From a virus, in IMG/VR virus record IMGVR_UViG_3300043539_000123, positions 1 to 24,845 of that record: a stretch of DNA of 24,845 nt; one strand, given 5' to 3'. Numbering within the stretch: the stretch's first letter is position 1; the number at the start of each line of letters is the position of its first letter. Below the pieces are notes generated by a model that did no database searches, was not told the origin of the DNA, and was given only the letters and a program-made list of their open reading frames with translations. This document shows, in pieces, positions 841 to 22,349 of this stretch. A program made the translations under genes and the position numbers.

Positions 841-869
841 CCTATATTATTCTAGGCAGGTAAAGTGTT
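841..869 (-). promoter_or_regulatory. Late promoter motif, copy A
   Basis: On the minus strand AACA (869-866) is followed by 17 bases and AATATAGG (848-841), one base before the ATG at 839. The same two blocks at the same spacing precede four other genes. It lies in the 31-base gap after the terminase stop. The promoter role is inferred from the conserved spacing. Confidence 0.6.
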
Positions 870-870
870 T

Positions 871-2022
871 CTAAAACGCATAGTAGCTATCATCCGTATA
901 GTACTCCTGCCGGATGTGAGTAGTGGCATACCTGATTGCATCCATGGCATCATCCCACATCTTGACCGGCTCATCAGTGATCATGTCTCCTACTTTTTTC
1001 CACTTGTAATTCTCATACTCTTTCTTGATTGCCTTATCATCCTGGCATAGGACCCCGAATGTCTTGATATTGTCAATGCCTTTCTTGACTACCTTGTTTG
1101 CGTTCTGCACGTCATATCCTGCATTGTTTAACTCGGCAATAATCTCAGGCCTTGCATAGTCTGCTACAATGGTTACAGTCTTCTCCACGTTGAAGCTTTG
1201 CATCTTATCTATGAGCATTGGTGTAGTCAGGTAGCTTTCATATATCACAGGCTCAATGTAGATGTCATTGTCGCACCAATATACACGCATGAGTGCTGTG
1301 GGGTGATTGTAACCAAAGTCCAATCCGTATACATAGTTGACAAACCTAGCAGGCCTATGAGGTATGAATGACCAATTGCTGTAGATGTTACTCTTGCTGA
1401 TTGCTTTCTCACCTAGGGCATAGATTTGGTATAGTGCCTCATCCGTTCTCTTAAGGTCCTCTATCTGAGCTCTAATGCTTTGAGGTAGGAATGGGTTATC
1501 TTTGTACGTTGACTTGATGAGTATGCTTTCCTCCTGAGGTAGCTCATACAGCCATGAGCTTGACTCACTTGGGTTGTAGTCAAAGATTAGCTTGCTTTCA
1601 GTTCTCATATTGAGCTGAGTGAAATCATCGAAGTACAGCTCATTGGCTTCGTTACACCATGCTATGTCTCTTTTCCTACCCCTTATCTTTTGCTCATCAT
1701 CCACACTAAAGAACTCCACTATGCTACCATTAGGGAACGTGTAGATGTGCTCACTCTTGTTGTGGTCTTCTACTGAGTAGATGTTCAGCTCTTTCAATAT
1801 CTCAATGAAGTCCCTGAGCACTGTTGCCCTCAAAGCAGGGAATGTCTTTCTAATGATAGATACTACCTTGTTGTTGTTCTGCAGGCAGTAGATGATAACT
1901 AACTGACATAGGCTGTAGGTCTTAGATGAACGGGAGCCTCCCTCATTAATCATAAACCTTATGCCCTGGTCATTGAGTGCCTCGTAGTTTTTCTCAAAGA
2001 TTACTGTGCTCTTTATCTCCAT
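871..2022 (-). CDS. terL: Terminase large subunit (packaging ATPase-nuclease)
   Basis: This 383-residue protein is the motor that pumps phage DNA into the prohead and cuts it. The N-terminal ATPase has a Walker A-like loop GGSRSSKT at residues 28-35 and a Walker B-like DIAWCNEAN at 119-127. The C-terminal RNase H-like nuclease shows YGLDFGYNHP near residue 232, VADYARPE near 285 and DDAMDAIRYA near 355, which supply the metal-binding acidic residues. The length is slightly short for a TerL but typical of the phage Terminase_3/PBSX group. Its start overlaps the preceding 55-residue gene, and the small terminase lies just upstream, as is usual. Confidence 0.95.
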   Translation of the reverse strand: MEIKSTVIFEKNYEALNDQGIRFMINEGGSRSSKTYSLCQLVIIYCLQNNNKVVSIIRKTFPALRATVLRDFIEILKELNIYSVEDHNKSEHIYTFPNGSIVEFFSVDDEQKIRGRKRDIAWCNEANELYFDDFTQLNMRTESKLIFDYNPSESSSWLYELPQEESILIKSTYKDNPFLPQSIRAQIEDLKRTDEALYQIYALGEKAISKSNIYSNWSFIPHRPARFVNYVYGLDFGYNHPTALMRVYWCDNDIYIEPVIYESYLTTPMLIDKMQSFNVEKTVTIVADYARPEIIAELNNAGYDVQNANKVVKKGIDNIKTFGVLCQDDKAIKKEYENYKWKKVGDMITDEPVKMWDDAMDAIRYATTHIRQEYYTDDSYYAF

Positions 2023-2161
2023 TGGCTATCTGAAATGCATTCATTAGCATGGCCATCTGCCTGCCATCGGTAGCTACTGCCCTCCTGTCTATCCTAACCT
2101 GTACTCCTTTCATCCTGTAGATGTAGTCCTCTACCACTGCACACATGAACTCAATCTGCAT
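1994..2161 (-). CDS. Small conserved-looking protein between the terminase genes
   Basis: A 55-residue frame starts with ATG at 2161 and stops with TGA at 1994-1996. It overlaps the end of the small terminase by 11 bases and the start of the large terminase by 29 bases, so it fills what would otherwise be a 128-base gap between them. The sequence (MQIEFMCAVVEDYIYRMKG..., ending KEHSNL) has normal amino acid composition and a likely helical N-terminus. No family is recognised. Tight overlap on both sides suggests translational coupling with the packaging genes. Confidence 0.65.
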   Translation of the reverse strand: MQIEFMCAVVEDYIYRMKGVQVRIDRRAVATDGRQMAMLMNAFQIANGDKEHSNL

Positions 2162-2573
2162 CCGGTCTCACAATGGTTACCTTGATGCTGTCTATCTTTT
2201 CTCCCTTGGTGGTGGTGTCTACACGTTCGGTTAGGTTGTTCAGACGTTGGGTGATGGATGCATTGTACTGCCCGGTCATGCCACCCTCTATCTGGTCCAT
2301 ACGGATTGCCTCCTCTATACGCGAGCAGATTGTGGCATATTCAGAATATCTATCTCCCTTGTTACAAAAATAATCATTCACTGTTTGCCCTTTCTCAGCA
2401 GCAAAAGTCCTGAAACCCACTTGAGTAAGTGGTCTCTCTAATGGTACTGCTGTAGCTTGACCTGTCTTAGTAGATAGTGAATAGCTATATCTAGGGTTTT
2501 CTTTACACCATCTCTTGTAGGCCTCAAATAGATCCCACATTGCTTCAGGTGTTTCTATGTGTTTTGGTCTCAT
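2151..2573 (-). CDS. terS: Terminase small subunit
   Basis: This 140-residue protein should recognise phage DNA and load the packaging motor. It resembles small terminases of Bacteroidota phages: an N-terminal segment TPEAMWDLFEAYKRWCKENP, a central ERPLTQVGFRTFA helix-turn-helix-like region, the stretch YATICSRIEEAIRMDQIEGGM near residues 79-99, and YNASITQRLNNLTE before a charged C-terminus. It lies just upstream of the large terminase and overlaps the preceding gene by four bases (ATGA). The call rests on family-like motifs and position. Confidence 0.8.
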   Translation of the reverse strand: MRPKHIETPEAMWDLFEAYKRWCKENPRYSYSLSTKTGQATAVPLERPLTQVGFRTFAAEKGQTVNDYFCNKGDRYSEYATICSRIEEAIRMDQIEGGMTGQYNASITQRLNNLTERVDTTTKGEKIDSIKVTIVRPDAD

Positions 2574-2902
2574 TTATCTATCTCTTTAAGTTTTCTACTA
2601 GCCCATTCAATGCCCTCATCACCTCCCCAGGCTAACCACATCAATCTACCACATCCATCTCCTAGTTCTTTCTGTGAGTTCTGCCTATGACGTTCAAAGC
2701 CTGCCATGCGGGCAATGGTATCTCTAGTGATATTCTCCCCATTAGCTAGCTGATTAGCACGAGCCTTACCAACTGCTGTACCACAATCACCCCATCCATT
2801 CTCTTCAGCCCACCTGATTGCTATCTTAGCATTCTCAGTAGCTTGTTTTGGATAGTCATTGTAGGAGTCTACAAACTCAAGGTATTTACTCAGTGGGTGC
2901 AT
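2570..2902 (-). CDS. Conserved phage protein with WxxWGGxxGxxWA motif
   Basis: This 110-residue protein has three recognisable blocks. They are a Gly/Ala/Arg-rich CGTAVGKARANQLANG at about residues 40-55, RDTIARMAGFERH at about 60-72, and CGRLMWLAWGGDEGIEWA at about 84-101. The same pattern (vGxARAxxL, RMxxFxRH, WGGxxGxxWA) occurs in many phage proteins near packaging or portal genes, but its function is not known to me. It is coupled by ATGA to the small terminase downstream and overlaps the 67-residue gene upstream, within the late packaging operon. Confidence 0.8.
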   Translation of the reverse strand: MHPLSKYLEFVDSYNDYPKQATENAKIAIRWAEENGWGDCGTAVGKARANQLANGENITRDTIARMAGFERHRQNSQKELGDGCGRLMWLAWGGDEGIEWASRKLKEIDK

Positions 2903-3089
2903 CAGGCTCCACTCCTTTGAATTTCTTACTTTTAGGCTCTACCTCTTCAAAGATATGGCCTATACCTTTCTCAGTCCAGAACTCAGCTTCATTAGCTGTC
3001 TCTTCAGCAATGGTGAAAGATACCTCTCTCCCATTTAGATATACGGTAATATACTTACCGATAAATTCACTCTTTACTTTCTTTGTCAT
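2886..3089 (-). CDS. Small hypothetical protein of the packaging operon
   Basis: A 67-residue protein, MTKKVKSEFIGKYITVYLNG at its start, with alternating hydrophobic residues in the first half (beta-like) and a Lys/Glu-rich tail ending GVEPDAPTE. It overlaps the genes on both sides (17 bases downstream, 23 bases upstream). Similar small proteins with an N-terminal strand-rich part and a charged tail are common in structural operons, and a head-associated role is only a guess. No catalytic motif is visible. Confidence 0.65.
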   Translation of the reverse strand: MTKKVKSEFIGKYITVYLNGREVSFTIAEETANEAEFWTEKGIGHIFEEVEPKSKKFKGVEPDAPTE

Positions 3090-3243
3090 ATTCGTATTGT
3101 TCTATAAATAACCATGCGTAATAAAGTACTACCCATATCCCAAAAGCTTTCATTGCCATTGAAGTGTTTTCTCTGACTAGAAAGAACGCACCTGTTAATG
3201 CAGTGAATGTAGCTAGTATGCTAATTATTTGAGATAGTCTCAT
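3067..3243 (-). CDS. Small membrane protein, first gene of the late packaging operon
   Basis: A 58-residue frame from ATG at 3243 to TGA at 3067-3069. It begins MRLSQIISILATFTALTGAF and contains two hydrophobic segments, about residues 5-22 and 31-47, followed by an acidic/basic tail EQYEYDKESKE, so a two-pass membrane protein is likely. The late promoter motif copy B ends one base before its ATG. It overlaps the sigma-like gene upstream by 23 bases and the next gene by 23 bases. The function is unknown; an accessory lysis or membrane role is possible but untested. Confidence 0.7.
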   Translation of the reverse strand: MRLSQIISILATFTALTGAFFLVRENTSMAMKAFGIWVVLYYAWLFIEQYEYDKESKE

Positions 3244-3766
3244 ACCTATATTGTAGATTGCGTAAATTTTGTTTAATTTCAGTTATCAGGTAGTGAGCTG
3301 AGGTAACCGGTATACCAAAGTACTTAGCCATGCCTCTAGCTGTGGTATATCCTTTATCAATGTATGCCTCAAACACTATCCTGTGCACGTTATCACTTAT
3401 TTGTGATCTGTATATCTCAATCATCCCTTTGTGAGTGCTGTATATCTTATCCTCAAGTATCTTATCTCGTAGGTCCTGCTCATCATCTACCTGCTCACTT
3501 GGCTTATATTCCATTGAAGTTATCCTATCATCCCTATGGCTCAGTGATGTGTTCCATAGTATCTGATATTTGATGGTATTGAGCAGGTAACTTTTCACCT
3601 GGTCTTCAGTATCTGCATCCTCATTAATGGTTAGCACATGCAGGTAACTGTTGTTTATGACCGTATCTGCCTCAATCTTACTCCCTAGCTTAGTTAGAAA
3701 GTACAGCGTGTAAGCCCTTACCTCATGGTAATGGTTATTGATGTACCTGTCTAAGAGCTTTTTCAT
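3221..3766 (-). CDS. Sigma-factor-like protein, candidate late transcription regulator
   Basis: The product (181 residues from the chosen ATG at 3766) looks like a small ECF-type sigma factor. Residues 31-47 (IEADTVINNSYLHVLTI) resemble the region 2 helix 'aEDlvQevFlrll'. Residues 57-78 resemble the following region 2.3/2.4 helix. Residues 141-168 (ARGMAKYFGIPVTSAHYLI and on) form a region 4-type helix-turn-helix. Upstream in-frame ATGs exist (up to 3841), but this start leaves a modest 32-base overlap with the previous gene and begins at the folded part. It is the last gene of the recombination operon, and a late promoter motif lies in its own 3' end. Family assignment is by pattern only. 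Confidence 0.65.
   Translation of the reverse strand: MKKLLDRYINNHYHEVRAYTLYFLTKLGSKIEADTVINNSYLHVLTINEDADTEDQVKSYLLNTIKYQILWNTSLSHRDDRITSMEYKPSEQVDDEQDLRDKILEDKIYSTHKGMIEIYRSQISDNVHRIVFEAYIDKGYTTARGMAKYFGIPVTSAHYLITEIKQNLRNLQYRYETISNN
3245..3273 (-). promoter_or_regulatory. Late promoter motif, copy B
   Basis: On the minus strand AACA (3273-3270), 17 bases, then AATATAGG (3252-3245), one base before the ATG at 3243. The motif lies inside the 3' end of the sigma-like gene, so if active it would start the packaging transcript independently of the upstream operon. Confidence 0.6.
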
Positions 3767-3953
3767 ACCATACCATAAAATCTTTGTACCATACCTTTCG
3801 CCTGACCGATGCACAAAAGCATTCTCTAGGTTGTGGACCATCGTACTTCATCCTAATCTTGTACAGCTGAACACAGGAGTGCTTAGAGTACTTAATAGCA
3901 TCCGCAGTAGCATCTATCTTATCTACTGTATCTATGTCAACTTGTTCAAACAT
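3735..3953 (-). CDS. Small basic protein with three cysteines, function unknown
   Basis: A 72-residue product beginning MFEQVDIDTVDKIDATADAI. The C-terminal half is basic and aromatic (RMKYDGPQPRECFCASVRRK), with Cys at about residues 27, 45 and 47. The spacing does not match a standard zinc finger, though metal binding is possible. A longer frame extends to 4040, but the chosen ATG gives only a 22-base overlap with the membrane-protein gene upstream and starts at the acidic, folded-looking part. It overlaps the sigma-like gene downstream, so a functional link with transcription control is possible from context only. Confidence 0.6.
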   Translation of the reverse strand: MFEQVDIDTVDKIDATADAIKYSKHSCVQLYKIRMKYDGPQPRECFCASVRRKVWYKDFMVWYEKALRQVHQ

Positions 3954-4180
3954 AATTCTAAAATGTAGGCACCCAGTGCTGCTTGACATGCTAGGATAAA
4001 ATCTTGATGCCATGCCAATGTAAGCCAAAAGGCCACACACTTACTACAGCTCAATGCATCTAGTAAAATGATGGCCCATGTGTCTGGTCTTAAGGACAGG
4101 TATATCCTTGTAATAGTTGCTTGCAGTGGCTCAAAATTGCACCACCACCAAGCTATAGGTATGATAAGTAAGAGTTCCAT
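3932..4180 (-). CDS. Small membrane protein with CSKCxxFW motif
   Basis: An 82-residue hydrophobic protein starting MELLLIIPIAWWW, with a membrane segment at about residues 1-14 and two more at about 35-45 and 50-76. The motif CSKCVAFWLTL at about residues 45-55 recalls a CxxC-x-FW pattern seen in small phage membrane proteins of the DUF1360 kind, although the assignment is tentative. A TATATTTG box (4186-4193, minus strand) lies five bases before the ATG, but no -33 partner is present, so I do not call a promoter. It overlaps its neighbours by 28 and 22 bases. Confidence 0.65.
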   Translation of the reverse strand: MELLLIIPIAWWWCNFEPLQATITRIYLSLRPDTWAIILLDALSCSKCVAFWLTLAWHQDFILACQAALGAYILELCLNKLT

Positions 4181-4389
4181 TTAGACAAATATACTCTAAA
4201 AAAGCTATCGTATATCTCAGTGGTCACATTCCTACCCTGCATGAAGCGGTATAGCTTGGCATAGTTTACCCCCATATCCTCAGATAGATGGGTTAGCTTA
4301 TATCTCTTGGATAGCTTGCCACGTATCTCTCTACGCATCCAATCGGATAGCTGTTGGTCCTCAGAAAGGTAGATCGTCAGTGCTCTCAT
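4153..4389 (-). CDS. Small helix-turn-helix protein
   Basis: The 78-residue product begins MRALTIYLSEDQQLSDW and has a Cro/CI-like helix-turn-helix at about residues 33-60 (LTHLSEDMGVNYAKLYRFMQG), where 'G-V-N-Y-x-x-L-x-R-F' matches the usual turn and recognition helix. The C-terminal part (EIYDSFFRVYLSKW) is probably a further helix or dimerisation segment. The frame extends upstream to an ATG at 4428, but the start at 4389 gives a 29-base overlap with the SSB gene, similar to neighbouring overlaps. It is a plausible DNA-binding regulator; its target is unknown. Confidence 0.65.
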   Translation of the reverse strand: MRALTIYLSEDQQLSDWMRREIRGKLSKRYKLTHLSEDMGVNYAKLYRFMQGRNVTTEIYDSFFRVYLSKWNSYLSYL

Positions 4390-4717
4390 CTGTAGTATCA
4401 AAAGTTTTACGCAATTTATCAACAGCACTGTTTTCTATCTTGGAACTCAGGCTCATGGTCCAAGCTTCAATAGAGTTAAAGTACTTGATTGTACCATCCT
4501 GTGCCTCCCATTTACGACCTCTTAGGTTATACTGCACCTCTACTACCTCACCTGTTTTAAGGTTGTTTGCTAGATCGCATTTGTCCTGGGTTAATTGGAA
4601 CGTTACATACTGCGGATACTCATCCTGTGACTTCAGGGTTACTTCTCTTTTCTTGAATTTGTCAGATACTGACGTTGTTGGGGTAATAAATACCACCTCT
4701 CCTTTGAATTTACTCAT
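4361..4717 (-). CDS. ssb: Single-stranded DNA-binding protein, DUF3127 type
   Basis: A 118-residue protein with the features of the DUF3127 family, an OB-fold group common in Bacteroidota and their phages. The N-terminus MSKFKGEVVFITPTTSVSD, the strand FKKREVTLKSQDEYPQYVTF and the block GEVVEVQYNLRGRKWEAQDG match the family pattern. It ends in an acidic tail with DDLPF, very like the C-terminal tip (DDDIPF) of bacterial SSB proteins that docks repair and replication enzymes. It lies in the same operon as the recombinase and exonuclease, which fits a role in coating single-stranded DNA. Confidence 0.8.
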   Translation of the reverse strand: MSKFKGEVVFITPTTSVSDKFKKREVTLKSQDEYPQYVTFQLTQDKCDLANNLKTGEVVEVQYNLRGRKWEAQDGTIKYFNSIEAWTMSLSSKIENSAVDKLRKTFDTTDESTDDLPF

Positions 4718-4805
4718 GGTTGTTTATGTATTTGATATAGTTTATTGTGCTAATCCACCCCCACACTATTGCAGGGGCTAATAAAATTGATGCTAATATA
4801 ATCAT
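4710..4805 (-). CDS. 31-residue single-pass membrane miniprotein
   Basis: A frame of 31 codons from ATG at 4805 to TAA at 4710-4712. The product begins MIILASILLAPAIVWGWIST, one continuous hydrophobic segment, and ends with a polar tail YIKYINNHE. It is tied to both neighbours: its ATG overlaps the stop of the upstream 82-residue gene as ATGA, and its stop overlaps the SSB start as ATGAGTAA. It fills the only gap in a fully overlapping operon, which is the main argument that it is real. Function unknown. Confidence 0.6.
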   Translation of the reverse strand: MIILASILLAPAIVWGWISTINYIKYINNHE

Positions 4806-5671: not shown

Positions 5672-5674
5672 AGG

Positions 5675-5872: not shown

Positions 5873-5873
5873 G

Positions 5874-7042: not shown

Positions 7043-7064
7043 AATTTTAAGTATTAAATTTCTA

Positions 7065-7098
7065 CAAATATACAAATTAATTGCACTTATTTACAAAA
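7065..7098 (-). promoter_or_regulatory. Host-type promoter of the recombination operon
   Basis: On the minus strand TTTTG (7098-7094), a 21-base spacer and TATATTTG (7072-7065) match the primary sigma promoter of Bacteroidota (TTG, about 17-23 bases, TAnnTTTG). The predicted start is near 7061, leaving a leader of about 19 bases before the ERF start at 7042. It lies at the 3' end of the upstream nuclease gene. Confidence 0.75.
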
Positions 7099-9854: not shown

Positions 9855-9885
9855 CAAATATAAATTAATGACGATAAAAAGACAA
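9855..9885 (-). promoter_or_regulatory. Host-type promoter of the primase-helicase gene
   Basis: TTG (9885-9883), 20 bases, then TATATTTG (9862-9855) on the minus strand match the Bacteroidota consensus. Only four bases separate the box from the ATG at 9850, so the transcript may be leaderless. One ATGACGAT repeat (9868-9875) lies in the spacer, so a protein binding there could block or modulate this promoter. Confidence 0.7.
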
Positions 9886-10100: not shown

Positions 10101-10553
10101 TTATGATAGCTCAAATGTAGTACTAATCTCATTCTTAGTCATTCTCTCTTGAAAACTTTTTAATAATTTAGTAGGGAAGTTACCTGTGATTGTTACCCTA
10201 GTTTCCTCGTCATCTATTGGCATAACATCGACATCAAAGATATTAATATCTGACCTCTTGGGTCTGATAAGTTCTGGAATGGGGTATATCATCTTGAGGT
10301 AGTTTTGGTCTTTTCTATGGTACCAATACTTGTGCTCTTGGATGCCATGCACCACCGTACTATGATCACGATTAAAATACTGACCAATCATGGTGGTAGT
10401 CATGTGCCTGTTTTCATACATGTAGTTGTACAGGTAGTATCTCTTGCTTACTATCTCCTGCTTTCTGCTAGGTGTGTTCAGCTGATATGCCCTAATGATA
10501 TCCACTATATCCTGGTTAATTACTTTGCTCAGTTCAAATAATTCCTCACTCAT
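10101..10553 (-). CDS. DnaA domain IV-like DNA-binding protein
   Basis: A 150-residue protein whose residues 30-80 resemble the DNA-binding domain IV of bacterial DnaA. RKQEIVSKRYYLYNYMYENR corresponds to the 'R..ReiVlaRqiamyl.re' helix, MTTTMIGQYF to the next helix, and NRDHSTVVHG (61-70) to the DnaA signature GRDHTTVLHA. There is no ATPase domain. The rest (VDVMPIDDEETRVTITGNFP and on) is unassigned. It overlaps the 62-residue gene upstream by ATGA and is followed by a terminator and then by DnaA-box-like repeats, so it is a likely initiator or repressor acting at those sites. Confidence 0.75.
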   Translation of the reverse strand: MSEELFELSKVINQDIVDIIRAYQLNTPSRKQEIVSKRYYLYNYMYENRHMTTTMIGQYFNRDHSTVVHGIQEHKYWYHRKDQNYLKMIYPIPELIRPKRSDINIFDVDVMPIDDEETRVTITGNFPTKLLKSFQERMTKNEISTTFELS

Positions 10554-10738: not shown

Positions 10739-10983
10739 TAGTCTAATCTTTTAGGGTCATTAACTCCTTTGAACAGGTTGCTTGTAGTAGCTATCATGCC
10801 GGTAGCTTTCATAAAGTCAACCTCAGCCTTAGCACTGTTTATCACTGAGTTAGACAGGTTAGAAATTGCCTGAGCCTTTTCTACTTCAGTAGATAGTTGT
10901 TCAGGTGTTAGCTCATCATCATTTAATCTCTCTAGAGCTGCGAAGAGGTGATCACGTAGATCATTCATGCCGTTTCTTGCCAT
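10738..10983 (-). CDS. Conserved phage protein of NDLRDHLFAALERL type
   Basis: An 81-residue helical protein beginning MARNGMNDLRDHLFAALERL, followed by an acidic linker, then KAQAISNLSNSVINSAKAEV. This pattern is familiar from many phages, where such proteins sit next to HNH endonuclease genes; the function is not established. Here it overlaps the HNH gene by 23 bases, the same association. The two helices could form a coiled-coil dimer. Confidence 0.75.
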   Translation of the reverse strand: MARNGMNDLRDHLFAALERLNDDELTPEQLSTEVEKAQAISNLSNSVINSAKAEVDFMKATGMIATTSNLFKGVNDPKRLD

Positions 10984-11575
10984 TGTTTATTGTTTTATTA
11001 AGTTTACTTTTTAATTTCATGACCTCCTGTAAGTCCTTTGGGAACCGTTGGATTGTATTTTTGGTCATGTTTGTGTTCATTGGGATGCACTCCAGGTTGC
11101 TCAGCTCTAAGTTCATAGTGTTGCCATCAATAAACCTAACTATGTGCTTAGGAGGGATGGGTCCATTAGCCTGCTCCCATGTCAACCGGTGAGTTAATAC
11201 CCATACACTATCTGATATCTTAGTGTAGTGATACTTTCTACCACTGCTATCAGTTCGGATGCTAGTTGCATTTGCCTCCCTAGTATTGAATGGCTTGTTG
11301 CCTTTCTTAAACATCGTAGCAGCTGCATTAGTTAGCAGTAAATTAGGACATTTGATACCTTTATTGAATGGTACATGACCTTTAGGATACCTGGTGTACT
11401 TACCTGCGTTTAATATCAGGGATCTATTTATTGCTTTCTTTGTCTTAGGGTCTTTTTTTAGTCCTCTTTTGTACGTTCTATTGTACACTTGGGATGCAGT
11501 CAATCCTAGATACTCACCTAGCACTTTTGCAGGGATGTATGGGTATAGTATTTCTAGTATCTTATCTTGTCGCAT
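10961..11575 (-). CDS. HNH-family endonuclease, homing type
   Basis: A 204-residue protein with an HNH_3-like core at residues 128-165: THRLTWEQANGPIPPKH and IVRFIDGNTMN followed by LSNLECIP. His129, His144, Asp150-Gly-Asn152 and Asn160 fit the scaffold, although the usual second His just before the I-D-G-N motif is replaced by Arg-Phe. An N-terminal helix-turn-helix (residues 15-38, AKVLGEYLGLTASQVYNRTY) and a middle region with F-N-K-G / F-K-K-G repeats may bind DNA. Such genes may be mobile, but here it overlaps its neighbours tightly and may serve the phage. Confidence 0.8.
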   Translation of the reverse strand: MRQDKILEILYPYIPAKVLGEYLGLTASQVYNRTYKRGLKKDPKTKKAINRSLILNAGKYTRYPKGHVPFNKGIKCPNLLLTNAAATMFKKGNKPFNTREANATSIRTDSSGRKYHYTKISDSVWVLTHRLTWEQANGPIPPKHIVRFIDGNTMNLELSNLECIPMNTNMTKNTIQRFPKDLQEVMKLKSKLNKTINNGKKRHE

Positions 11576-12394: not shown

Positions 12395-12425
12395 CAAAGA
12401 TATAAAAGGTTTCATATATGCAAAA
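12395..12425 (-). promoter_or_regulatory. Host-type promoter of the early operon
   Basis: TTTTG (12425-12421), 18 bases, then TATCTTTG (12402-12395) on the minus strand match the Bacteroidota consensus TTG-N-TAnnTTTG. The start is predicted near 12391, about 24 bases before the first gene. The -33 element sits inside a near-perfect dyad, suggesting repression. Confidence 0.7.
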
Positions 12426-15400: not shown

Positions 15401-16695
15401 TATACAATAGGTTGAGTAGGTTCATCAATAGGAGGTAAAGATGCTAGAGCTCTAATCTCATTGGTAGTCATTTTTTCAAGTACTTTGCTTAGTAGTGCAT
15501 CACTCAAATTGTTCAATGCATCCTTAACTTGAGCAGTTTTCTCATCTACCTCAATAATAGTATCACCAATGATTTGATAGTTATTGATTGTGAAATCAGC
15601 AGGGATGCGAGCAATGGTTAGTATCTCATTAAAGATAGTAGTTACCTGTTGACGTAACTCCATGACTACATTCTTTTCAAAGATAACATAGGCCTGCTTG
15701 ATATCACTACCATTACCTAAGCTACCAGTGGTACGGATACCCATTAGGATAGGGTCAATGGTGTGGCTAAAACAAATCTGTTCAGTGTTCAATGCAGATG
15801 CCTCATGAAATAGCTTATCATTGCCATTAGTAGGTAGGCTTTCAATCTTTGGTAGTTGGTCCGCACTATTGGCAAAGAATGCAACTGCCTTACCGGCATT
15901 GGCTGCACCTTTAAGACGGTCAATAGTTTCCTTGATCATGTGCTTTTCCTCCTCAGACTGTGGCCTCTTTGGGAACATCATAGCAAAGCTAGGGAACACA
16001 CTATTTTGGATGTTACTTTTTGCGAAGTAACTTAACTCGCCACTCAAAAATGCAAAATTAAGTGCCGAACTATATGTCGGCAAACTATAGTGGTCCTGAC
16101 CAACTGACTTAACTTCGTAGCAATAGAGCTGACATTCATCCTTACAGGTGATGTGGTAAGGCTTAATTTCTTTGATGTCGATGTTAGTGCTCCAGTCATC
16201 ACATAAATAGTACATATCTCCAAACCTAGATACCCTTACTTTGTCAGGTGATACATTCTCTATCTTGATTAGTTTCTTTTTTTCACCAAAATATAGCTTG
16301 AAGTACACACGATTGTGGATGATTAACTGCTTTGTAACAGCCTTAACAGTGTGCTTGAGGTTAGCTTTCTTTTCAAAGGTAAACATCTCAAGTTTTTCCT
16401 GAGGTGTGAGCTTATCGGTTGTAAGGTTAAAGCCTCCACCAATTACAGCGTTGGTCTTATAGTCTACAATGGCACCATGTAGTGGTGAGCTGTAGTACAT
16501 TTGATTGAGCATTTGTGGATACAGGTTATCTGTTCCAAATCTCACCCACATGTTAGTAGAATATCTACCGTTTACATAGGGCAGTGTCAAGTTACCTCTC
16601 CCTACCGGTAGGAATGGGGTGCTAAATGATTGATAGCCCTCTACCATTTCAGGACCTTTTGGTTTAATGTTAAATAGTCTTTCGTACCAAGCCAT
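15400..16695 (-). CDS. Portal protein
   Basis: This 431-residue protein forms the ring through which DNA enters and leaves the capsid. Typical portal features are YSSPLHGAIVDYKTNAVIGGG near residues 68-88, the wing strands GDMYYLCDDW near 160, and the C-terminal half with ASALNTEQICFSHTIDPILMG and TTGSLGNGSDIKQAYVIFEK, a helix-rich stem and crown. The length fits the phage portal/PBSX family. It lies between the small structural gene at 16698 and the connector, but after the capsid gene, the reverse of the usual order. Confidence 0.85.
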   Translation of the reverse strand: MAWYERLFNIKPKGPEMVEGYQSFSTPFLPVGRGNLTLPYVNGRYSTNMWVRFGTDNLYPQMLNQMYYSSPLHGAIVDYKTNAVIGGGFNLTTDKLTPQEKLEMFTFEKKANLKHTVKAVTKQLIIHNRVYFKLYFGEKKKLIKIENVSPDKVRVSRFGDMYYLCDDWSTNIDIKEIKPYHITCKDECQLYCYEVKSVGQDHYSLPTYSSALNFAFLSGELSYFAKSNIQNSVFPSFAMMFPKRPQSEEEKHMIKETIDRLKGAANAGKAVAFFANSADQLPKIESLPTNGNDKLFHEASALNTEQICFSHTIDPILMGIRTTGSLGNGSDIKQAYVIFEKNVVMELRQQVTTIFNEILTIARIPADFTINNYQIIGDTIIEVDEKTAQVKDALNNLSDALLSKVLEKMTTNEIRALASLPPIDEPTQPIV

Positions 16696-16697
16696 AG

Positions 16698-17048
16698 TTA
16701 ATCGTATATTGAAGTTCCTGCAGGACCACTTACAACCATTCTCCCCTCCTCAATGACTACACCTGTAGTCTGTGCTATTGTAAGAGGCAAAACGAATGGT
16801 GTTGAGCTCTCATATACCTGGTAAGTGAACTGACCTTTTAAGAGTGTAATGTCTGTTGGCTCATCAAGAGTAAACAGGTTGTATCTTTCTGGCCATGCAC
16901 TCGTATCAGCAGATGTGAAGAGCTGTGGTGTGCTAGTAGTATTCATTTCATTGGTGAATACAAATAAATAGTGTGGTGTAGTAACCGTAGTTACCTCACT
17001 AAGAGTCAACACGAACTGATTAATAACACCTTGATCTAAGTAAATCAC
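16698..17048 (-). CDS. Small structural protein, GTG start
   Basis: A 116-residue strand-rich protein (MIYLDQGVINQFVLTLSEVT, later HYLFVFTNEM, FTYQVYES and a C-terminal GRMVVSGPAGTSIYD). Proteins with this N-terminus and the 'ERYNLFTL' motif near residue 54 are frequent among structural genes of Bacteroidota phages. I do not know their exact role; head decoration or tail adaptor are possible. The start is GTG at 17048, one base after late promoter motif copy C, which supports the choice over any internal start. Confidence 0.7.
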   Translation of the reverse strand: MIYLDQGVINQFVLTLSEVTTVTTPHYLFVFTNEMNTTSTPQLFTSADTSAWPERYNLFTLDEPTDITLLKGQFTYQVYESSTPFVLPLTIAQTTGVVIEEGRMVVSGPAGTSIYD

Positions 17049-17049
17049 A

Positions 17050-17078
17050 CCTATATTAAATTAGCTTTGTCAAATGTT
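17050..17078 (-). promoter_or_regulatory. Late promoter motif, copy C
   Basis: AACA (17078-17075), 17 bases, then AATATAGG (17057-17050) on the minus strand, one base before a GTG start. It lies just after a terminator, so the portal-connector-lysis unit can be transcribed independently of the tail-tube gene. Confidence 0.6.
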
Positions 17079-17081
17079 CAT

Positions 17082-17111
17082 AAAAAAAGCCCTACCATTA
17101 CAGCAGGGCTT
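17082..17111 (-). terminator. Intrinsic terminator after the tail-tube gene
   Basis: On the minus strand AAGCCCT (17111-17105) pairs with AGGGCTT (17093-17087) around an 11-base loop, followed by a run of seven T (17088-17082). It lies about 23 bases beyond the stop of the gene at 17134 and just before the next late promoter motif. Confidence 0.8.
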
Positions 17112-17133
17112 AAATATAGAGAGGTAGAATTGC

Positions 17134-17685
17134 TTATTGTACTCCGATTGCTTGAAGTGCAAGATCAGTCATATCAATGTTGTAAGCTAAGTAAGGGTTC
17201 TCAGCTACCAAAGTAACTGTATATTTTGAACCATCAGCTCTAGCTGTACCTGAGCCCTCACCTGTAGCAGATAACTGCAAGTATGGGAAGTACCAATATA
17301 AGCCATTAGCATCTAAGATGATAGCTGTTAAGTATTGCTGTCCTGTTCCTAGGATTTTAATAGCACGAGACTTATCAGCATCTCTTCTGTGGAATACTAA
17401 GTTAACTGTCTGAGTTACAAAAGAGCTACCATTAACTAAGTCAATAGTGCTATCCTCTGTATAGTTGGATGTGTTTCGGCGTACCTCAAATGGTTGGAAT
17501 AAATCACCACCTGGTTGTAAGGTGATACCTGTAATTTGCCAGGCATTCGCACCAGTTACTATAGATGGGTCAGCAGGAGTGATAGAAGCTATCTCATCCT
17601 GTGTATTAATCCAAACACCATAGATACCACCAATGTTGTTAAGACATGGTTTTACGATAGTCTCTAAAGATTGACATGTAGCCAT
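17134..17685 (-). CDS. Major tail tube protein candidate
   Basis: A 183-residue protein that should stack into the tail tube. The second half has the pattern of siphovirus tail-tube proteins in Bacteroidota phages: LVFHRRDADKSRAIKIL, then YLTAIILDANGLYWYFPYLQ and GEGSGTARADGSKYTVTLVA, ending with a helix (MTDLALQAIGVQ). The G-x-A-R-A-D-G-S-x-Y-x-V-T-L signature is typical. It has a terminator on each side, so it appears to be a single-gene transcript unit or to be read from the capsid unit, and is probably highly expressed. Confidence 0.7.
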   Translation of the reverse strand: MATCQSLETIVKPCLNNIGGIYGVWINTQDEIASITPADPSIVTGANAWQITGITLQPGGDLFQPFEVRRNTSNYTEDSTIDLVNGSSFVTQTVNLVFHRRDADKSRAIKILGTGQQYLTAIILDANGLYWYFPYLQLSATGEGSGTARADGSKYTVTLVAENPYLAYNIDMTDLALQAIGVQ

Positions 17686-17699
17686 TGTGTAAAAGTATT

Positions 17700-17724
17700 A
17701 AAGAGCCCCCTTGGTAGAGGGCTC
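17700..17724 (-). terminator. Terminator-like hairpin after the major capsid gene
   Basis: On the minus strand GAGCCC (17724-17719) pairs with GGGCTC (17708-17703) around a 10-base loop, followed by only three T before AAT. It lies between the capsid gene stop and the tail-tube start; the short T-run suggests partial termination. Confidence 0.55.
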
Positions 17725-17735
17725 ATGATTAAAAA

Positions 17736-18680
17736 TTATGCGTAGTAAACGATGTCAGTTGGGTTAACAAAGCTGAAACCAACTTTCATGTTAGCACGAG
17801 TACGGATAACCGGCTCAGCAACAGTGTCAGATAAGTTAACTGCACGTAGGTCAGATGGGTCTCCCTCACCATCAAAAGCAAAGATTAAATTGTCTTTCAA
17901 TGTGATAACAAATTTATTGTTAGACATTCCTGGACAAAGTACAATCTTGATACCTAAGTAAGTCAAAGACAAATCTTGAGTGATGAACGCTTGAGTGTTA
18001 CCTGAAGCTACTCCTAAACGGTAGATGTTTACTAATTGAGTAGGCATGTAGATACGTAGGTCAGCTGTACGTGATGCAATAGCTGCAGGAACTAAAGCAA
18101 AAGCAGCCTCTAATTTAGCACCTAATCCACCAACTCCTGAGAATGTAGTGATAGTACCACCACCACCATTGATAACATCACCTGCTAATTCTGAAGCAGC
18201 TAATTGTTTCTCATAACCATCACACAAAGCAAGCTGTGGGTTAGGAGATAATACATCACCTTGCCAACGTAGAGCTTCAATTTGTCCGTTAACAGCATTA
18301 GCCATTTCAGACCAGTAGAAGTTAAAGAAATTAGCTACAGAGAAATCACCATTAGATCCTGCTGACATTTGTAAAGATACGAATGACTGCTCTAAATCAA
18401 ACTGACAAACCTGAGCCATTGCAGAAAGAGCACATACGTCTACTTCATGTGAGCTTAAGTCATCTGAGTTAAGGTTAGGGAAGTTACATGGAGATGTAGC
18501 TAACAATCCTGAACCAAAAGTAACTGTACCAATTTTAGTCTTATACTTGATACCTGGTAGAGTACGGAAGTTATCAGCAATCTCAGTGCTTCCTAAATAT
18601 GCTTGAGCATAGAATGCCTCAGCGTTTGGTGCCAATAAAGCACTCGGGTCGATGTTCAAATCAAATCTTAATTTACGCAT
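17736..18680 (-). CDS. Major capsid protein, HK97-like fold likely
   Basis: A 314-residue protein at the position of the shell subunit, directly after the protease/scaffold gene. It begins MRKLRFDLNIDPSALLAPNA and includes ALSAMAQVCQFDLEQSFVSL, a segment FYWSEMANAVNGQIEALRWQ, the acidic Asp/Gly region GDVINGGGGTI, and NVYR-like strands (QLVNIYRLGVASGNTQAF), ending with MKVGFSFVNPTDIVYYA. The leader reads AACAACAACAAATAACAACAAAATG, an A-rich sequence suited to strong translation without a Shine-Dalgarno site. A hairpin follows the gene. Fold assignment is by context. Confidence 0.8.
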   Translation of the reverse strand: MRKLRFDLNIDPSALLAPNAEAFYAQAYLGSTEIADNFRTLPGIKYKTKIGTVTFGSGLLATSPCNFPNLNSDDLSSHEVDVCALSAMAQVCQFDLEQSFVSLQMSAGSNGDFSVANFFNFYWSEMANAVNGQIEALRWQGDVLSPNPQLALCDGYEKQLAASELAGDVINGGGGTITTFSGVGGLGAKLEAAFALVPAAIASRTADLRIYMPTQLVNIYRLGVASGNTQAFITQDLSLTYLGIKIVLCPGMSNNKFVITLKDNLIFAFDGEGDPSDLRAVNLSDTVAEPVIRTRANMKVGFSFVNPTDIVYYA

Positions 18681-18687
18681 TTTGTTG

Positions 18688-19671
18688 TTATTTGTTGTTG
18701 TTAAATTTTACGAAGTTACTTAGTTTTTGATGTGCACTTAAAGTCACAGCCTCAGCCATCTCCTCATCCTCTACCTCTACAGATAGAACTTCCTCTAATT
18801 GATTTTTGATTTCAGCAATCATGGCAAGCAAAGCATTTAATTGCTCATCCATTACAGGCTTAACAATAGCAAGGATAGCCTCTGCATCTACTGCAGGATC
18901 TATTGCCATTGTTTGCTCTTCTGCAGGAACTTCTGCTGTTACTTCCTCTTCAACTACAGTGTCCTCAAGGGCTATCTCTTCAGATACCTCTTCTTTTTCT
19001 ACATCTTTTACTTCAACTACTTTACCATCCTTGATGATATAGATTTTTTCGTTGATGATGTGCTCGCCATCTGGCAACATTAACTCATTCATTTGTGTTT
19101 TATTTTGGGATTGTTTTTGCTCGTTTAATTTCATGCCTAAGTATCCCTCAATAGAGAAACCTATCTGCTCCTGTGCTACAAGCTCAGCATAGTACTCTTT
19201 GTCAGTTACCTGGGCAGTAACCATTAGCGTACCCTCAGGCACTTCAATGCCAAATGATGAGTAAGCCTTATCCTTTTTTGGGTTGTCTACTATCCATGCC
19301 TCAAGTACATAGGCAGGAACGGTTTGAGATTGGTCATGCTCCAGGTTAAATAGGTCTCGGTTGACCATCTGCTGCATGAATTTTCCATGAATTTTCTCAA
19401 TCTCTTCCTTAGTAAACTTGACATTGTACTCCTCATCTGTATCCTCATCAAAGCGGTATATCTCCATAGGTATCAAAGCAGGTGCAGTTACTCTATATTT
19501 GAGCTCATCTGTAAAGAATAAAGCCTTAGCTTGAGAATTGAATGCCATCCCTTTGACCTTAATGGCAGGATTGGATGTGAATGCTATCTGTTCAATGCCT
19601 AAGTCCTGTCCGTTTTCAGCGTATTCAGGGTCAATAGTTATTTTGTAAGTAGGGATATCTTTTTTAGCCAT
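18688..19671 (-). CDS. Prohead protease (XkdF-like) fused to a scaffold domain
   Basis: A 327-residue protein. The N-terminal 180 residues match XkdF-type prohead serine proteases: VTAPALIPMEIYR at 61-73, IEKIHGKFMQ at 91-100, FNLEHDQS with catalytic His112, VLEAWIV at 122-128, and GFSIEGYL with the nucleophile Ser173. The C-terminal part is strongly acidic (Glu/Val-rich, 220-260) and then coiled-coil-like (about 270-300), as expected for an internal scaffold removed after assembly. The gene precedes the capsid gene with a 7-base gap and starts three bases after late promoter motif copy D. Confidence 0.85.
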   Translation of the reverse strand: MAKKDIPTYKITIDPEYAENGQDLGIEQIAFTSNPAIKVKGMAFNSQAKALFFTDELKYRVTAPALIPMEIYRFDEDTDEEYNVKFTKEEIEKIHGKFMQQMVNRDLFNLEHDQSQTVPAYVLEAWIVDNPKKDKAYSSFGIEVPEGTLMVTAQVTDKEYYAELVAQEQIGFSIEGYLGMKLNEQKQSQNKTQMNELMLPDGEHIINEKIYIIKDGKVVEVKDVEKEEVSEEIALEDTVVEEEVTAEVPAEEQTMAIDPAVDAEAILAIVKPVMDEQLNALLAMIAEIKNQLEEVLSVEVEDEEMAEAVTLSAHQKLSNFVKFNNNK

Positions 19672-19674
19672 CTA

Positions 19675-19702
19675 CCTATATTAAAAAAAACGTATATTTG
19701 TT
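19675..19702 (-). promoter_or_regulatory. Late promoter motif, copy D
   Basis: AACA (19702-19699), 16 bases (including an 8-base T run on this strand), then AATATAGG (19682-19675), three bases before the ATG at 19671. It is the only copy with a 16-base spacer and overlaps the -7 box of a promoter on the other strand. Confidence 0.55.
19693..19700 (+). promoter_or_regulatory. Host-type -7 box for the plus-strand genes
   Basis: TATATTTG on the plus strand matches TAnnTTTG exactly and lies 15 bases before the ATG at 19716. No clear TTG is present at the -33 position, so activity may be weak or need help. It overlaps the AACA block of the divergent late motif D. Confidence 0.45.
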
Positions 19703-19715
19703 CAAAAAATTAACT

Positions 19716-20264
19716 ATGATAACTATCTTAAACAGGGAAATTCCCAACCAACTTGAAGAGCTGACTATTGAGCAGTTCGAAGTCATTACTGATATTAATA
19801 ACAATCAGGAACTGGACCCCATTGATAAGCACCTCCAGGTGTTTGCTTACCTTGGCATCCCTGAGTCTGAGTTTTGGGACTATGATGTGGCTGACTTTGT
19901 AGGGATGGTAAAAGAATTTAACTCAGCAGAACGCAAAGAGTACCCGGTAGTAGAAGAGCTAGAGATTGAGGGCTACATCTACAAAGCACAAATGAAGTTA
20001 ACTGTACGTGATACTAAGATGATTGAGAAAGTAGCACTAAGAAAAGAGAAAGGATATATCTCTGAGATGTTGGCTATCATGTTCAAACGTGAGGACCTTA
20101 CACCCACTGAGCACTACACCGATGCACATATCAAGCAGAAAGCAAAGCTAATTCGTAAATTGAATGCTGCTATCTCCATTCCATACATGATGTTTATTGC
20201 ACAAAAAATAGGACAACAAGCTAATGATCAAGCTACCCAAGCAGTGGAGCCAAGTAACGCTTGA
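19716..20264 (+). CDS. Tail assembly chaperone-like protein 1
   Basis: A 182-residue acidic helical protein (start chosen at 19716, after the TATATTTG box; an in-frame ATG at 19698 would lie on the box itself). It begins MITILNREIPNQLEELTIEQ and contains YISEMLAIMFKREDLTPTEHY. It shares a domain plan with the next gene: an opening LTIEQF/LTLEQF block, a D-V-(A/D)-(D/E) turn and an AIMFKR/AILYRQ segment. Position near capsid, tube and tape measure, plus the overlapping pair arrangement, suggests the gpG/gpGT-type tail chaperones of siphoviruses. The call is contextual; the opposite strand is unusual. Confidence 0.5.
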   Translation: MITILNREIPNQLEELTIEQFEVITDINNNQELDPIDKHLQVFAYLGIPESEFWDYDVADFVGMVKEFNSAERKEYPVVEELEIEGYIYKAQMKLTVRDTKMIEKVALRKEKGYISEMLAIMFKREDLTPTEHYTDAHIKQKAKLIRKLNAAISIPYMMFIAQKIGQQANDQATQAVEPSNA

Positions 20265-20964
20265 GCAGTTCATTGAGTTTAGTCAGATAGATAGAGAACA
20301 GGGAGCCTACCACTACAACAGTGAGGCTCTTTCTATTTTATCGGATGAGCCTATTGATGTCATTGAGGACCTAGATGTGGATGAGTTAGCAGAACTTGTT
20401 AACGAGTCAAGATGGTGTACCTCTGAGCCATCCAAAAGATACAAGCATGAGCTGTTAGGGATGAAGTTCAAGCCATTCAGCAAGCTAACCCTATACGAGT
20501 ACATTGACCTTGATTATTTCTTTAGTAATAACTACATCACAAATCTTGATAAGGTATGTGCTATCCTGTACCGGCAAACTAAACTCAATGAATGGGGTGA
20601 TGAAATCATGGAGCCCTATGACTTTGACTGCAACATTAGAGCTGAGAAATTTCATGACCTACCCATCACAGATGTGTATGGTATTATTAATGAGTTCCTA
20701 AAGTTCAGGGATAACTTTCTTAAGACCTATGAAAACTTATTCACCGGTGATCTAGATACTCCACTCACCGATGAAGAGAAAGCTAACATGGACCCTGAAG
20801 AGATTAAAGAAATTGAGAAAGAGCAGACTCAAGTTAAGTGGTCATGGGAACAAACCATCTACGGGTTGACTAATGGGGATATAACAAAGAGTGATAAGAT
20901 AGGTGTCCTACCACTCGTTTATGTTTTCAATATCCTTTCAATGAAGAAAGAGTTAGACATCTAG
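20224..20964 (+). CDS. Tail assembly chaperone-like protein 2
   Basis: A 246-residue acidic protein beginning MIKLPKQWSQVTLEQFIEFS, with KLTLYEYIDLDYFFSNNYITN in one part of a middle region and VCAILYRQTKLNEWGDE after it; the C-terminal third is helical (KANMDPEEIKEIEKEQTQVK). It begins 41 bases inside gene 1, in the +1 frame, at TAATG, so reinitiation or frameshifting could link the two products. It is apparently a diverged paralogue of gene 1. It ends 12 bases inside the convergent gene at 20953. The tail-chaperone role is an inference. Confidence 0.5.
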   Translation: MIKLPKQWSQVTLEQFIEFSQIDREQGAYHYNSEALSILSDEPIDVIEDLDVDELAELVNESRWCTSEPSKRYKHELLGMKFKPFSKLTLYEYIDLDYFFSNNYITNLDKVCAILYRQTKLNEWGDEIMEPYDFDCNIRAEKFHDLPITDVYGIINEFLKFRDNFLKTYENLFTGDLDTPLTDEEKANMDPEEIKEIEKEQTQVKWSWEQTIYGLTNGDITKSDKIGVLPLVYVFNILSMKKELDI

Positions 20965-21405
20965 AGGGAACCCAGGGGTAAAGCCTGGAGGCGGGTCAAC
21001 TGCCTCAAATGTGTAGACAATTTTCTGCTGTTTCTCAAGCACCTCAACAGCCTCTACCAATGGATACTTTTTAGTTAACCATTCAGTGTACTGTCTATAA
21101 ATTTCTGCTGTGATACCTGCAGCATTTAACTCATCCGTAAATTGTGCTACATAATCACGAGGGGTGATCACTCCACCATTCCAAAGAAACGCACCATTGT
21201 TCAGGAATATAAAGTAGTACATTGCTACTATTTGTATCTCTAACTTTTGGAAGCCTGTTATCTTGGCATTGATACGGATACTTTCTACGAGTGTACCCTC
21301 ACCATCCACAACATCATTCCTGATTATTCTTTTTAGGATTGTAGCCATTCTCCTACGTGTAGGATATAGCACATTGAACTCCCCTGTGTTTGCGTATCTA
21401 GCCAT
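20953..21405 (-). CDS. Phage structural-region protein, function unknown
   Basis: A 150-residue protein starting MARYANTGEFNVLYPTRRRM, with a helical first half (ATILKRIIRND, KLEIQIVAMYYFIFLNNGA) and a second half with AGITAEIYRQYTEWLTKKYP, ending in a Pro-rich tail DPPPGFTPGFPLDV. The N-terminal Arg-rich segment followed by a helical domain is like some head-tail joining proteins, but I cannot assign a family. It overlaps the upstream 50-residue gene by 8 bases and its 3' end overlaps the convergent plus-strand gene by 12 bases. Confidence 0.65.
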   Translation of the reverse strand: MARYANTGEFNVLYPTRRRMATILKRIIRNDVVDGEGTLVESIRINAKITGFQKLEIQIVAMYYFIFLNNGAFLWNGGVITPRDYVAQFTDELNAAGITAEIYRQYTEWLTKKYPLVEAVEVLEKQQKIVYTFEAVDPPPGFTPGFPLDV

Positions 21406-21550
21406 TTGTTAATGCTTTATATATATCCATTGTATCATCCACTAGAATGACACCCTTATCAGTTTCAACATGCAGCTGAGTATCACTAATCACCTCAATA
21501 GGTCCTATGATTGTGTACTCTATTTCGTTGTATGTAAATGTATTAATCAT
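21398..21550 (-). CDS. 50-residue small structural-region protein
   Basis: A frame from ATG at 21550 to TAG at 21398-21400. The product begins MINTFTYNEIEYTIIGPIEV, continues with alternating residues (TQLHVETDKGVILVDD), suggesting a small beta-barrel, and ends MDIYKALTNG. It overlaps the stop of the fibre-like gene (ATGATTAA) and the next start by 8 bases, filling an otherwise empty 137-base gap. No family recognised. Confidence 0.65.
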   Translation of the reverse strand: MINTFTYNEIEYTIIGPIEVISDTQLHVETDKGVILVDDTMDIYKALTNG

Positions 21551-22319
21551 ATGCTTGTGTTATTACTCTTCTCCAATTTGCTACATCGGTTGCAGATGTT
21601 GAATGCTGCACAGCAAATAATAAGTAATTATCTACAGCAGGATTAAACCCTATTAAACTTATTGCGGATGATGTGTAATCATTAGCAGCTGATACTCCAG
21701 TGTTATATACATTTAAGTTTGTGCCATCAAAAAATATGTTCCGTTCAAATCTTTGAAATCTTACTGTTGTTGCCATTGAACCGGCTGAGCCAAGAAACGT
21801 TGCACCCGTTATAGTGTTTGAAGTATTTACATAAAATCTAAAAACAGTAGAACCAGCACCACTTGTTACTGTCCTTTCAATAAAGCCTTTAATGTATATA
21901 GTGTTATTTGTAGATATAGTACCTGCAGGAATAAAAATAGATGCACTTTGTAAGTTAACTAATCCACTTACATTGGTACCATTAACACTTTGAATAGTCC
22001 TTGGGTTAGTAGTAACATTACCACTACCTACCAATGAGCTGCCATTAACAGTCTTGATGTTAGTGCCACTTACTAGCGTAGCTTGCTTACCATTCAATGC
22101 AGTCTGTAAATCTGTTTGACTAGATAGCGTTCCTGTGATACCTCCCCAGGTTGCACTACCACCCGATGCTGCTGCAATTATCTGAGCACCTGTAATGGCT
22201 GTATTGACAGGCAAGCCACCCACAATAGAAGTACATTCTAGCAAGTCAGTTGGCTGTAAATTTCCTGTGTGAGGTGTGAGGTTAGGCCTCCAATCTCCCC
22301 ACCAATTAGATGAACTCAT
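21543..22319 (-). CDS. Tail fibre-like or host-recognition protein
   Basis: A 258-residue protein of low charge, rich in Gly, Ser, Thr and Asn. After a short N-terminal segment (MSSSNWWGDWRPNLTPHTG) comes the linker LNGKQATLVSGTNIKTVNG and SSLVGSGNVTTN, a pattern typical of trimeric phage fibres and tail needle proteins. The C-terminal 130 residues are strand-rich and end with WRRVITQAYD, likely a receptor-binding or trimer head. The start follows late promoter motif copy E by one base. Position near the tape measure supports a virion role. Confidence 0.65.
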   Translation of the reverse strand: MSSSNWWGDWRPNLTPHTGNLQPTDLLECTSIVGGLPVNTAITGAQIIAAASGGSATWGGITGTLSSQTDLQTALNGKQATLVSGTNIKTVNGSSLVGSGNVTTNPRTIQSVNGTNVSGLVNLQSASIFIPAGTISTNNTIYIKGFIERTVTSGAGSTVFRFYVNTSNTITGATFLGSAGSMATTVRFQRFERNIFFDGTNLNVYNTGVSAANDYTSSAISLIGFNPAVDNYLLFAVQHSTSATDVANWRRVITQAYD

Positions 22320-22320
22320 A

Positions 22321-22349
22321 CCTATATTACTTTAAGCCTCCGAAATGTT
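22321..22349 (-). promoter_or_regulatory. Late promoter motif, copy E
   Basis: AACA (22349-22346), 17 bases, then AATATAGG (22328-22321) on the minus strand, one base before the ATG at 22319. The AACA block touches the stop codon of the upstream gene; the rest lies in the 29-base intergenic gap. Confidence 0.6.

Follow-up and report, generated by a model that had tools for sequence, protein, structure and literature searches.

The window analysed here is a 24,845-nt stretch of DNA from a tailed phage (IMG/VR virus record IMGVR_UViG_3300043539_000123; the record is incomplete). A two-block element, AACA followed after 16 or 17 bases by AATATAGGT, stands before five of its gene starts, and the genes concerned are judged late from their content. 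An earlier interpretation of the letters alone, hereafter the sequence-only reading, had called a phage-specific late promoter likely. This remains the best interpretation, supported by second blocks that mostly change jointly within genomes and by early genes that appear to carry host-type promoters. We infer, with a probability of about 0.77, that the five sites are late promoters read by a phage sigma factor together with the host core RNA polymerase. A 181-amino-acid (aa) gene, which the sequence-only reading missed, is a good candidate for the reader of these promoters.

The two-block element and its conservation

A count against shuffled sequence, as the sequence-only reading had proposed, gave five exact copies of AACA-N16/17-AATATAGGT on the minus strand, compared with a mean of 0.04 in dinucleotide shuffles; none of 100 shuffles contained five. 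The plus strand of the window holds no copy. The second block alone, with one mismatch allowed, is not enriched in the window (29 observed, 34.6 expected); hence, the signal is the pair at fixed spacing. All five copies lie exactly where they had been reported, with a spacer of 17 bases in four and 16 in the copy at 19675-19702. A T directly follows the second block in all five. The start codon comes one base after that block in four copies (ATG, ATG, GTG, ATG) and three bases after it in the fifth, again as previously described.

The first copy (841-869, minus strand, as are all five) consists of AACA at 866-869, N17, AATATAGG at 841-848, T at 840, and ATG at 837-839. The gene behind it (3-839, at least 279 aa, cut by the window end) comes directly after that for the terminase large subunit. 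Copy 2 (3245-3273, N17) lies inside the 3' end of the open reading frame (ORF) of the sigma candidate and precedes a 58-aa gene (3067-3243), followed by the terminase small and large subunits. Copy 3 (17050-17078, N17), just downstream of a terminator-like hairpin, precedes a 116-aa gene with a GTG start (16698-17048) and then the portal gene. Copy 4 (19675-19702, N16) stands before an XkdF-like protease gene (18688-19671) and then a virion protein gene, and copy 5 (22321-22349, N17) before a tail-like gene (21543-22319). The sequence-only reading had assigned a structural, packaging, or membrane gene to every copy. Broadly this fits, given the terminase, portal, protease, and tail-like genes, but "structural" is not established for the 279-, 58-, and 116-aa genes because the PHROGs search returned no match to any of them. 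Its statement that replication genes are not preceded by the motif is correct for the primase/helicase and exonuclease genes. A further window match at 7545, where the primase gene and the one after it meet, has no GG after AATATA.

Relatives were collected from IMG/VR by a terminase-guided search. The best 80 of 210 loci were used, and a wider set comprised 363 related stretches. The exact motif is present in 70 of the 80 loci, and the other 10 carry variants at the same places. Across 81 sequences, AATATAGGT occurs 200 times, with AACA 16 or 17 bases upstream in 176. The extended consensus from 115 distinct 17-spacer copies is AAACAWW ... YAATATAGGTA, in which the first W is replaced by C at a frequency of 0.16. 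A control in which AACA was replaced by a shifted word was not used, as it overlaps AACAA. After the terminase genes, the two-block element was found in 220 of the 222 loci with enough sequence, always as AACA followed after 16 or 17 bases by any of ten second-block forms; the remaining two loci end at contig ends and are unclassified. These loci overlap (one set contains 141 distinct stretches), and most of the 15 loci scored as "none" in a first classification had variant second blocks. A scan of IMG/VR for AACA-N16/17-AATATAGGTATG matched at least 119 stretches. Among the 80 of these that were listed, 71 hold a relative of the window proteins, so the motif appears close to diagnostic for the phage group; of the remaining nine, seven do not precede a long ORF.

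The element could in principle be a translation-initiation signal, with AATATAGG at the position of a ribosome-binding site, since it abuts the start codon and contains AGG. We consider this highly improbable. Downstream of the terminase genes, the distance from AATATA to ATG in 219 overlapping loci was 3 (142 loci), 4 (12), 9-10 (14), 14 (43), or another value (8). Overall it takes values of 3, 4, 9-10, 12, 14, and up to 19 bases, whereas the distance to AACA stays at 16-17. The pair is thus not a translation signal because the block spacing is kept in diverged relatives while the position of the start codon varies, which upholds the original argument for a promoter rather than a translation signal only. 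The motif is also missing from the 31 other gene starts of the window. Bacteroidota, the probable hosts, have no Shine-Dalgarno sequences and prefer A at -3 (PMC6847099). The motif has G at -3, which is a weak point against a translation signal, as A stands at -3 in just 11 of the 31 other window starts.

Equally improbable are promoters of a T7-like single-subunit RNA polymerase with an RNA start at the GG of TATAGG. This hexamer resembles the T7 start region, and a start at GG would give a 3-base leader. However, T7-type contacts fit poorly with a conserved block 24-27 bases upstream, and relatives have TA, AG, AA, or GT in place of GG. None of the 20 window proteins scanned matched a polymerase. 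In 10 records, a search run without a positive control, and with the window record incomplete, found no single-subunit RNA polymerase; a multisubunit RNA polymerase was not found in the same records either.

Joint change of the second block and a candidate sigma factor

Diverged records keep AACA and the spacing, and AATATATA, GCAATATAA, GCAACATA, AATATTGG, or ACAATATAAG replaces AATATAGG. In 18 records searched whole, with a pattern that required AACA and a nearby ATG, one form was mostly common to all copies of a record. GCAACATA accounts for every copy in G015-G017. GCAATATAA was found in G002 and G021-G024, with one additional site in a coding stretch in each of G021 and G022 and a reverse-strand match in G022, which also gave chance-like matches. 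AATATAT occurs in G025, G026, and three of the four copies of G027, ACAATATAAG in G028-G029, and AATATAG with variable next bases in G004 and G020. Second blocks are mixed in G018, G019, and G005, the last with two copies each of two forms. The same sharing within a record was seen in seven records examined separately.

Site similarity was compared over ten positions in seven genomes (two of the AATATAGG form and one of each other form). It was 0.94 within and 0.72 between genomes, and none of 10,000 permutations was as high. This first test left out the AACA-N17-AAYATAGAT sites in the gene after the sigma candidate and the window match at 7545. When the two omitted sites that precede a start codon were restored, the values were 0.91 and 0.72 (0 of 10,000 permutations); matches without a downstream start codon were in neither test. 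With one genome per form, they were 0.95 and 0.71 (0 of 10,000 permutations). Different sites of a genome mostly change jointly, and therefore one trans-acting reader is expected.

Two observations concern other possible placements of the blocks. Three loci of the IKKQ and IKRQ lineages defined below (L064 at 1458, L065 at 8819, and L296 at 1712) carry AACA-N17-AATATAGAT inside the gene after the sigma candidate. This site lies in a conserved coding stretch (VVDNIDV); chance, coding constraint, or a shifted promoter is possible. A reading of the -10 element as TANNAY further upstream was dropped, as other lineages do not keep TANNAY.

The candidate reader is encoded at 3221-3766 on the minus strand (181 aa; the ORF is open to 3841), overlapping copy 2 at the 3' end of the gene. 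Of 81 terminase loci, 73 contain the gene; the remaining eight stop before it or, in the case of L024, inside it. Each of 10 records examined contained exactly one copy. Two AlphaFold models showed two helical domains joined by a loose linker, with a predicted local distance difference test (pLDDT) score of 78 and 80 and a predicted template modelling (pTM) score of about 0.4. On the predicted structure, residues 1-85 align with sigma region 2 and residues 103-181 with region 4. The predicted layout is that of extracytoplasmic function (ECF) sigma factors, with regions 2 and 4 only, in that order, within about 180 aa.

Structure searches pointed the same way. Among the first 34 rows of a Foldseek search of PDB, 30 titles name a sigma factor or sigma complex and the other four are transcription-complex chains (best E 2e-3). 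In the viral library, the first match was an uncharacterised phage protein with 45% identity, and the second was named sigma-70 region 2 (E 2e-4). VIA-align matched sigmaE region 4 on -35 DNA (Z 7.5, 2.8 Å, 69 residues), sigmaE region 2 on the -10 strand (Z 6.3, 3.5 Å, 77 residues), and sigmaE in the initiation complex (Z 7.6, 156 residues, 11.2 Å, the domains being set differently). Sigma factors or transcription-complex chains made up 48 of 50 structure-match rows. The window protein gave five NCBIfam matches, all to sigma factors (best E 8.8e-4). No usable family came from sequence searches of Pfam, PHROGs, and PDB, and a profile comparison with a single ECF protein from another genome was too weak to use. 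A tblastn search of phage records with the gene returned nothing at E 0.1, and no cultured relative was found.

The recognition segment of region 4 is nearly constant, like AACA, and region 2 varies with the second block. In the region-2 segment, AATATAG lineages have IKYQ, AATATATA lineages IKKQ or IKMQ, and GCAATATA or GCAACATA lineages IKRQ. There are exceptions: IKKQ is also seen with AATATTGG and ACAATATAAG, and R, K, or H stands at this position in a few AATATAGG loci.

Several points weigh against sigma identity or against the reading of the sites by this protein. The NCBIfam matches lie far below cut-off, and the curated cut-offs of Sigma70_r2 and NCBIfam are not reached. The window protein has no Pfam match even at E 10, and the sigma region 2 model was not found. 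Other family members give matches of about the same weakness to unrelated models, among them Pfam DUF7437 and Omp28 at 0.0013, POTRA_2 (19 of 30), and ribosomal S25e (8 of 30). An hhalign comparison with 30 ECF proteins was collinear over 164 columns, with E 0.028 and a probability of 0.9%, and a profile comparison with the sigma factor of Salmonella phage 7-11 showed no relation. The structure Z values are middling for helical proteins, and with pTM at the value given above the linker is poorly predicted. Second-block variants track phylogeny as well as sigma, and not without exceptions: a GG variant appears again in the IKRQ lineage, and several forms are found with IKKQ. The correspondence of region 2 with the second block could thus be explained in part by phylogeny alone. 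Moreover, the constancy of AACA was tested after the terminase genes; elsewhere, AACA was part of the search pattern.

In a different account, an alternative sigma factor of the host, or host RNA polymerase remodelled by another phage regulator, would read the late promoters, and the 181-aa protein would be an unrelated helical DNA-binding protein. The weak sequence evidence for sigma identity favours it. The window also encodes other possible DNA-binding proteins, of DnaA_C type (10101-10553) and with a weak helix-turn-helix match (4153-4428), and Flavobacterium psychrophilum has seven ECF sigma factors (PMC9723704). However, the second block varies by phage lineage together with the 181-aa gene, the gene is present in all 10 records examined, and its two domains align in order with sigma regions 2 and 4. 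We regard this account as unlikely.

Putative early promoters, the proposed late switch, and the probable RNA start

The minus strand of the window bears all recognised virion and replication genes. The top-scoring terminase relatives belong to Parabacteroides, Flavobacterium, and Bacteroides phages (about 33% identity); the list of 1223 records also includes many Vibrio and Streptococcus phages. A relative of the primase is found in 13 records, nine of which are named, and these are Flavobacterium, Polaribacter, Bacteroides, and Maribacter phages. Together with Bacteroidota-type promoters at two early genes, these relatives indicate that the host of this uncultured phage group probably belongs to the Bacteroidota. 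One contig of the group (L307) sits in an environmental metagenome-assembled genome of about 0.8 Mb, perhaps by a binning error; other matches of that genome gave no help on the host.

The host-type pair TTTG-N17/21-TAnnTTTG occurs four times in the window, against 0.74 expected; two of 100 shuffles reach four. Two pairs precede early genes and the other two lie inside genes. The putative early promoters are TTTG-N18-TATCTTTG at 12395-12424 (minus strand, 27 nt before ATG), with the same arrangement in relative L302, and TTTG-N21-TATATTTG at 7065-7097 (minus strand, 22 nt before ATG). Over eight records, 12 such pairs were listed, four of them before an ORF. None of these pairs (TTTG at -33, TAnnTTTG at -7) overlaps a copy of the late motif, in agreement with the earlier statement that the motif is unlike the host consensus. 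The early block ends, on its downstream side, with the sigma candidate, immediately ahead of a late promoter.

We propose the following two-stage programme. The host primary sigma factor would first transcribe the early genes from TTTG/TAnnTTTG promoters. The product of 3221-3766 would act as a two-domain, ECF-like sigma factor that rides on the host core RNA polymerase, with region 4 contacting (A)AACA as the -35 element and region 2 contacting the YAATATAGG region as the -10 element. It would switch on the terminase, capsid, portal, and tail genes, and transcription would start at the A of the abutting ATG or beside it; most late mRNAs would therefore probably be leaderless. A terminator-like hairpin with a T tail (17087-17111, minus strand) lies directly upstream of copy 3 and ends eight bases before it, which suggests that transcription starts anew there. 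Seven terminator-like sites were found in 16500-22800, against 3.3 expected.

Copy 4 has a particular arrangement. Read on the plus strand, its AACAAATATA gives a host -7 box TAnnTTTG (TATATTTG, 19693-19700), which overlaps the copy and faces divergent plus-strand genes with an ATG at about 19716. The protease copy has a 16-base spacer in every record examined. The box is present in six of eight distinct 16-spacer sites, all six being protease copies, and the two sites without it lie elsewhere; among 146 distinct 17-spacer copies, none has it. Lineages differ at the two free positions of the box, and TA and TTTG are constant. The overlap may explain the 16-base spacer of the protease copy. Running counter to this explanation, seven of the 220 post-terminase copies have a 16-base spacer without the box.

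The sequence-only reading had noted the abutting start codons and missed what they imply, namely very short or absent leaders. Homologous proteins share the same Met-Ala start in loci where the ATG abuts the block and in loci where it is 14 bases distant, which identifies the abutting ATG as the true start. In phage 7-11, transcription begins 6-9 bp after the aCTA element (PMC8948821). Transferred to the present layout, this distance spans the stretch from the A of ATG to shortly past the beginning of codon 2. An RNA start at the A satisfies both the 7-11 distances and the need of translation for a start at or before the A. If the motif is a promoter, we therefore think it probable that the late mRNAs are leaderless. 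A consideration on the other side is that a leaderless start requires the nearest position within the 6-9 bp range.

The sites could also be sigma-dependent promoters with an RNA start inside the gene, the abutting ATG being unused from these transcripts. The 7-11 start distances would allow this. Against it, the same Met-Ala start is kept in homologues at either ATG position, and the ATG shifts by 0-3 bases yet is retained. This variant is improbable, although somewhat less so than reading by a host alternative sigma factor.

In F. johnsoniae, 87% of the predicted leaders are longer than 10 nt. In F. psychrophilum, 5.5% of mRNAs are leaderless (PMC9723704). As host mRNAs of this kind mostly have leaders, late phage mRNAs would differ from them. 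Leaderless messages would not in themselves be a novelty, since phage transcripts have been called often leaderless (PMC5312081). More speculatively, and with somewhat less than even confidence, we suggest that the phage sigma factor sets the A of the AUG as the first base of the RNA, which would make the promoter switch a translation-initiation switch as well, and that sigma and -10 element drifted together through at least five forms with the -35 element fixed.

Further features of the window touch on leaders, transcription, and the early region. Host-type -7 boxes TATATTTG at 9855-9862 and 4186-4193 (minus strand) lie 4-5 bases before an ATG; hence, late genes may not be the only ones with very short leaders. 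Two overlapping opposite-strand genes (19698-20964, plus strand; starts near 19716 and 20224) lie inside the late region and have no PHROGs match. In the minus-strand set, 10101-10553 encodes a protein with a DnaA C-terminal DNA-binding domain, for which origin binding is possible, and 10961-11575, in the early region, an HNH endonuclease-type protein. The DUF3127 protein at 4361-4717 (minus strand, E 1.4e-24) has a faint match to SSB and is perhaps a single-strand binding protein.

Comparison with known systems

In bacterial ECF promoters, the -35 element contains an AAC core and is separated from the -10 element by about 17 bases. The present protein shares the two-domain form with ECF sigmas in its predicted structure, but it lies below every family cut-off and its putative -10 element is AATATA-like. 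The kind of system proposed here is already known from phages 7-11 and phiEco32. As in these phages, a conserved element is repeated before late genes and not before replication genes, and it is unlike the host consensus, which serves early genes.

The closest precedent is Salmonella phage 7-11, whose sigma factor SaPh711_gp47 and late promoters GTAAtg-(16)-aCTA were shown experimentally (PMC8948821). On the reading proposed here, both systems would have a small phage sigma factor with a region-4-like part, several bipartite late promoters with fixed spacing, and early genes served by host sigma. The 6-(16)-4 layout is also common to both when the present motif is written as AAACAw-(16)-AATA. 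The differences are in the element sequences, the undetectable protein similarity, the probable Bacteroidota host, the start codon at or next to the promoter, the many relatives with lineage-specific -10 elements, and the genome size (about 29 kb in the present group). In phiEco32, gp36 directs middle and late promoters tAATGTAtA (per PMC8948821). A phage sigma factor with dedicated later promoters would be common to both, whereas the phiEco32 promoter is a single element without a -35 element and the present motif has two elements. The Bacteroidota primary-sigma promoter TTTG/TAnnTTTG (PMC6847099, PMC9723704) is also two-part, and this type stands at two early genes here. The late motif matches neither host box, and the protease copy overlaps a host box on the opposite strand.

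The literature searched, whose coverage left out most subscription papers and preprints, contains no report of the motif or the gene. Within it, the probable host phylum, the unrecognised sigma-like family, the joint promoter drift within genomes, the AUG overlap, and the back-to-back overlap with a host promoter are new. The 210 related stretches (363 in the wider set), with several promoters each, form a natural data set for joint change of region 2 and the -10 element. Given the AUG overlap, leaderless late translation in Bacteroidota phages is directly testable, and the motif can mark transcription units and true start codons in unannotated genomes of the group. The authors of the 7-11 study predicted further undescribed phage sigma/promoter pairs among related phages (PMC8948821, Discussion). 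For such a pair, the system described here offers a strong candidate, from an unrelated and widespread group of environmental phages.

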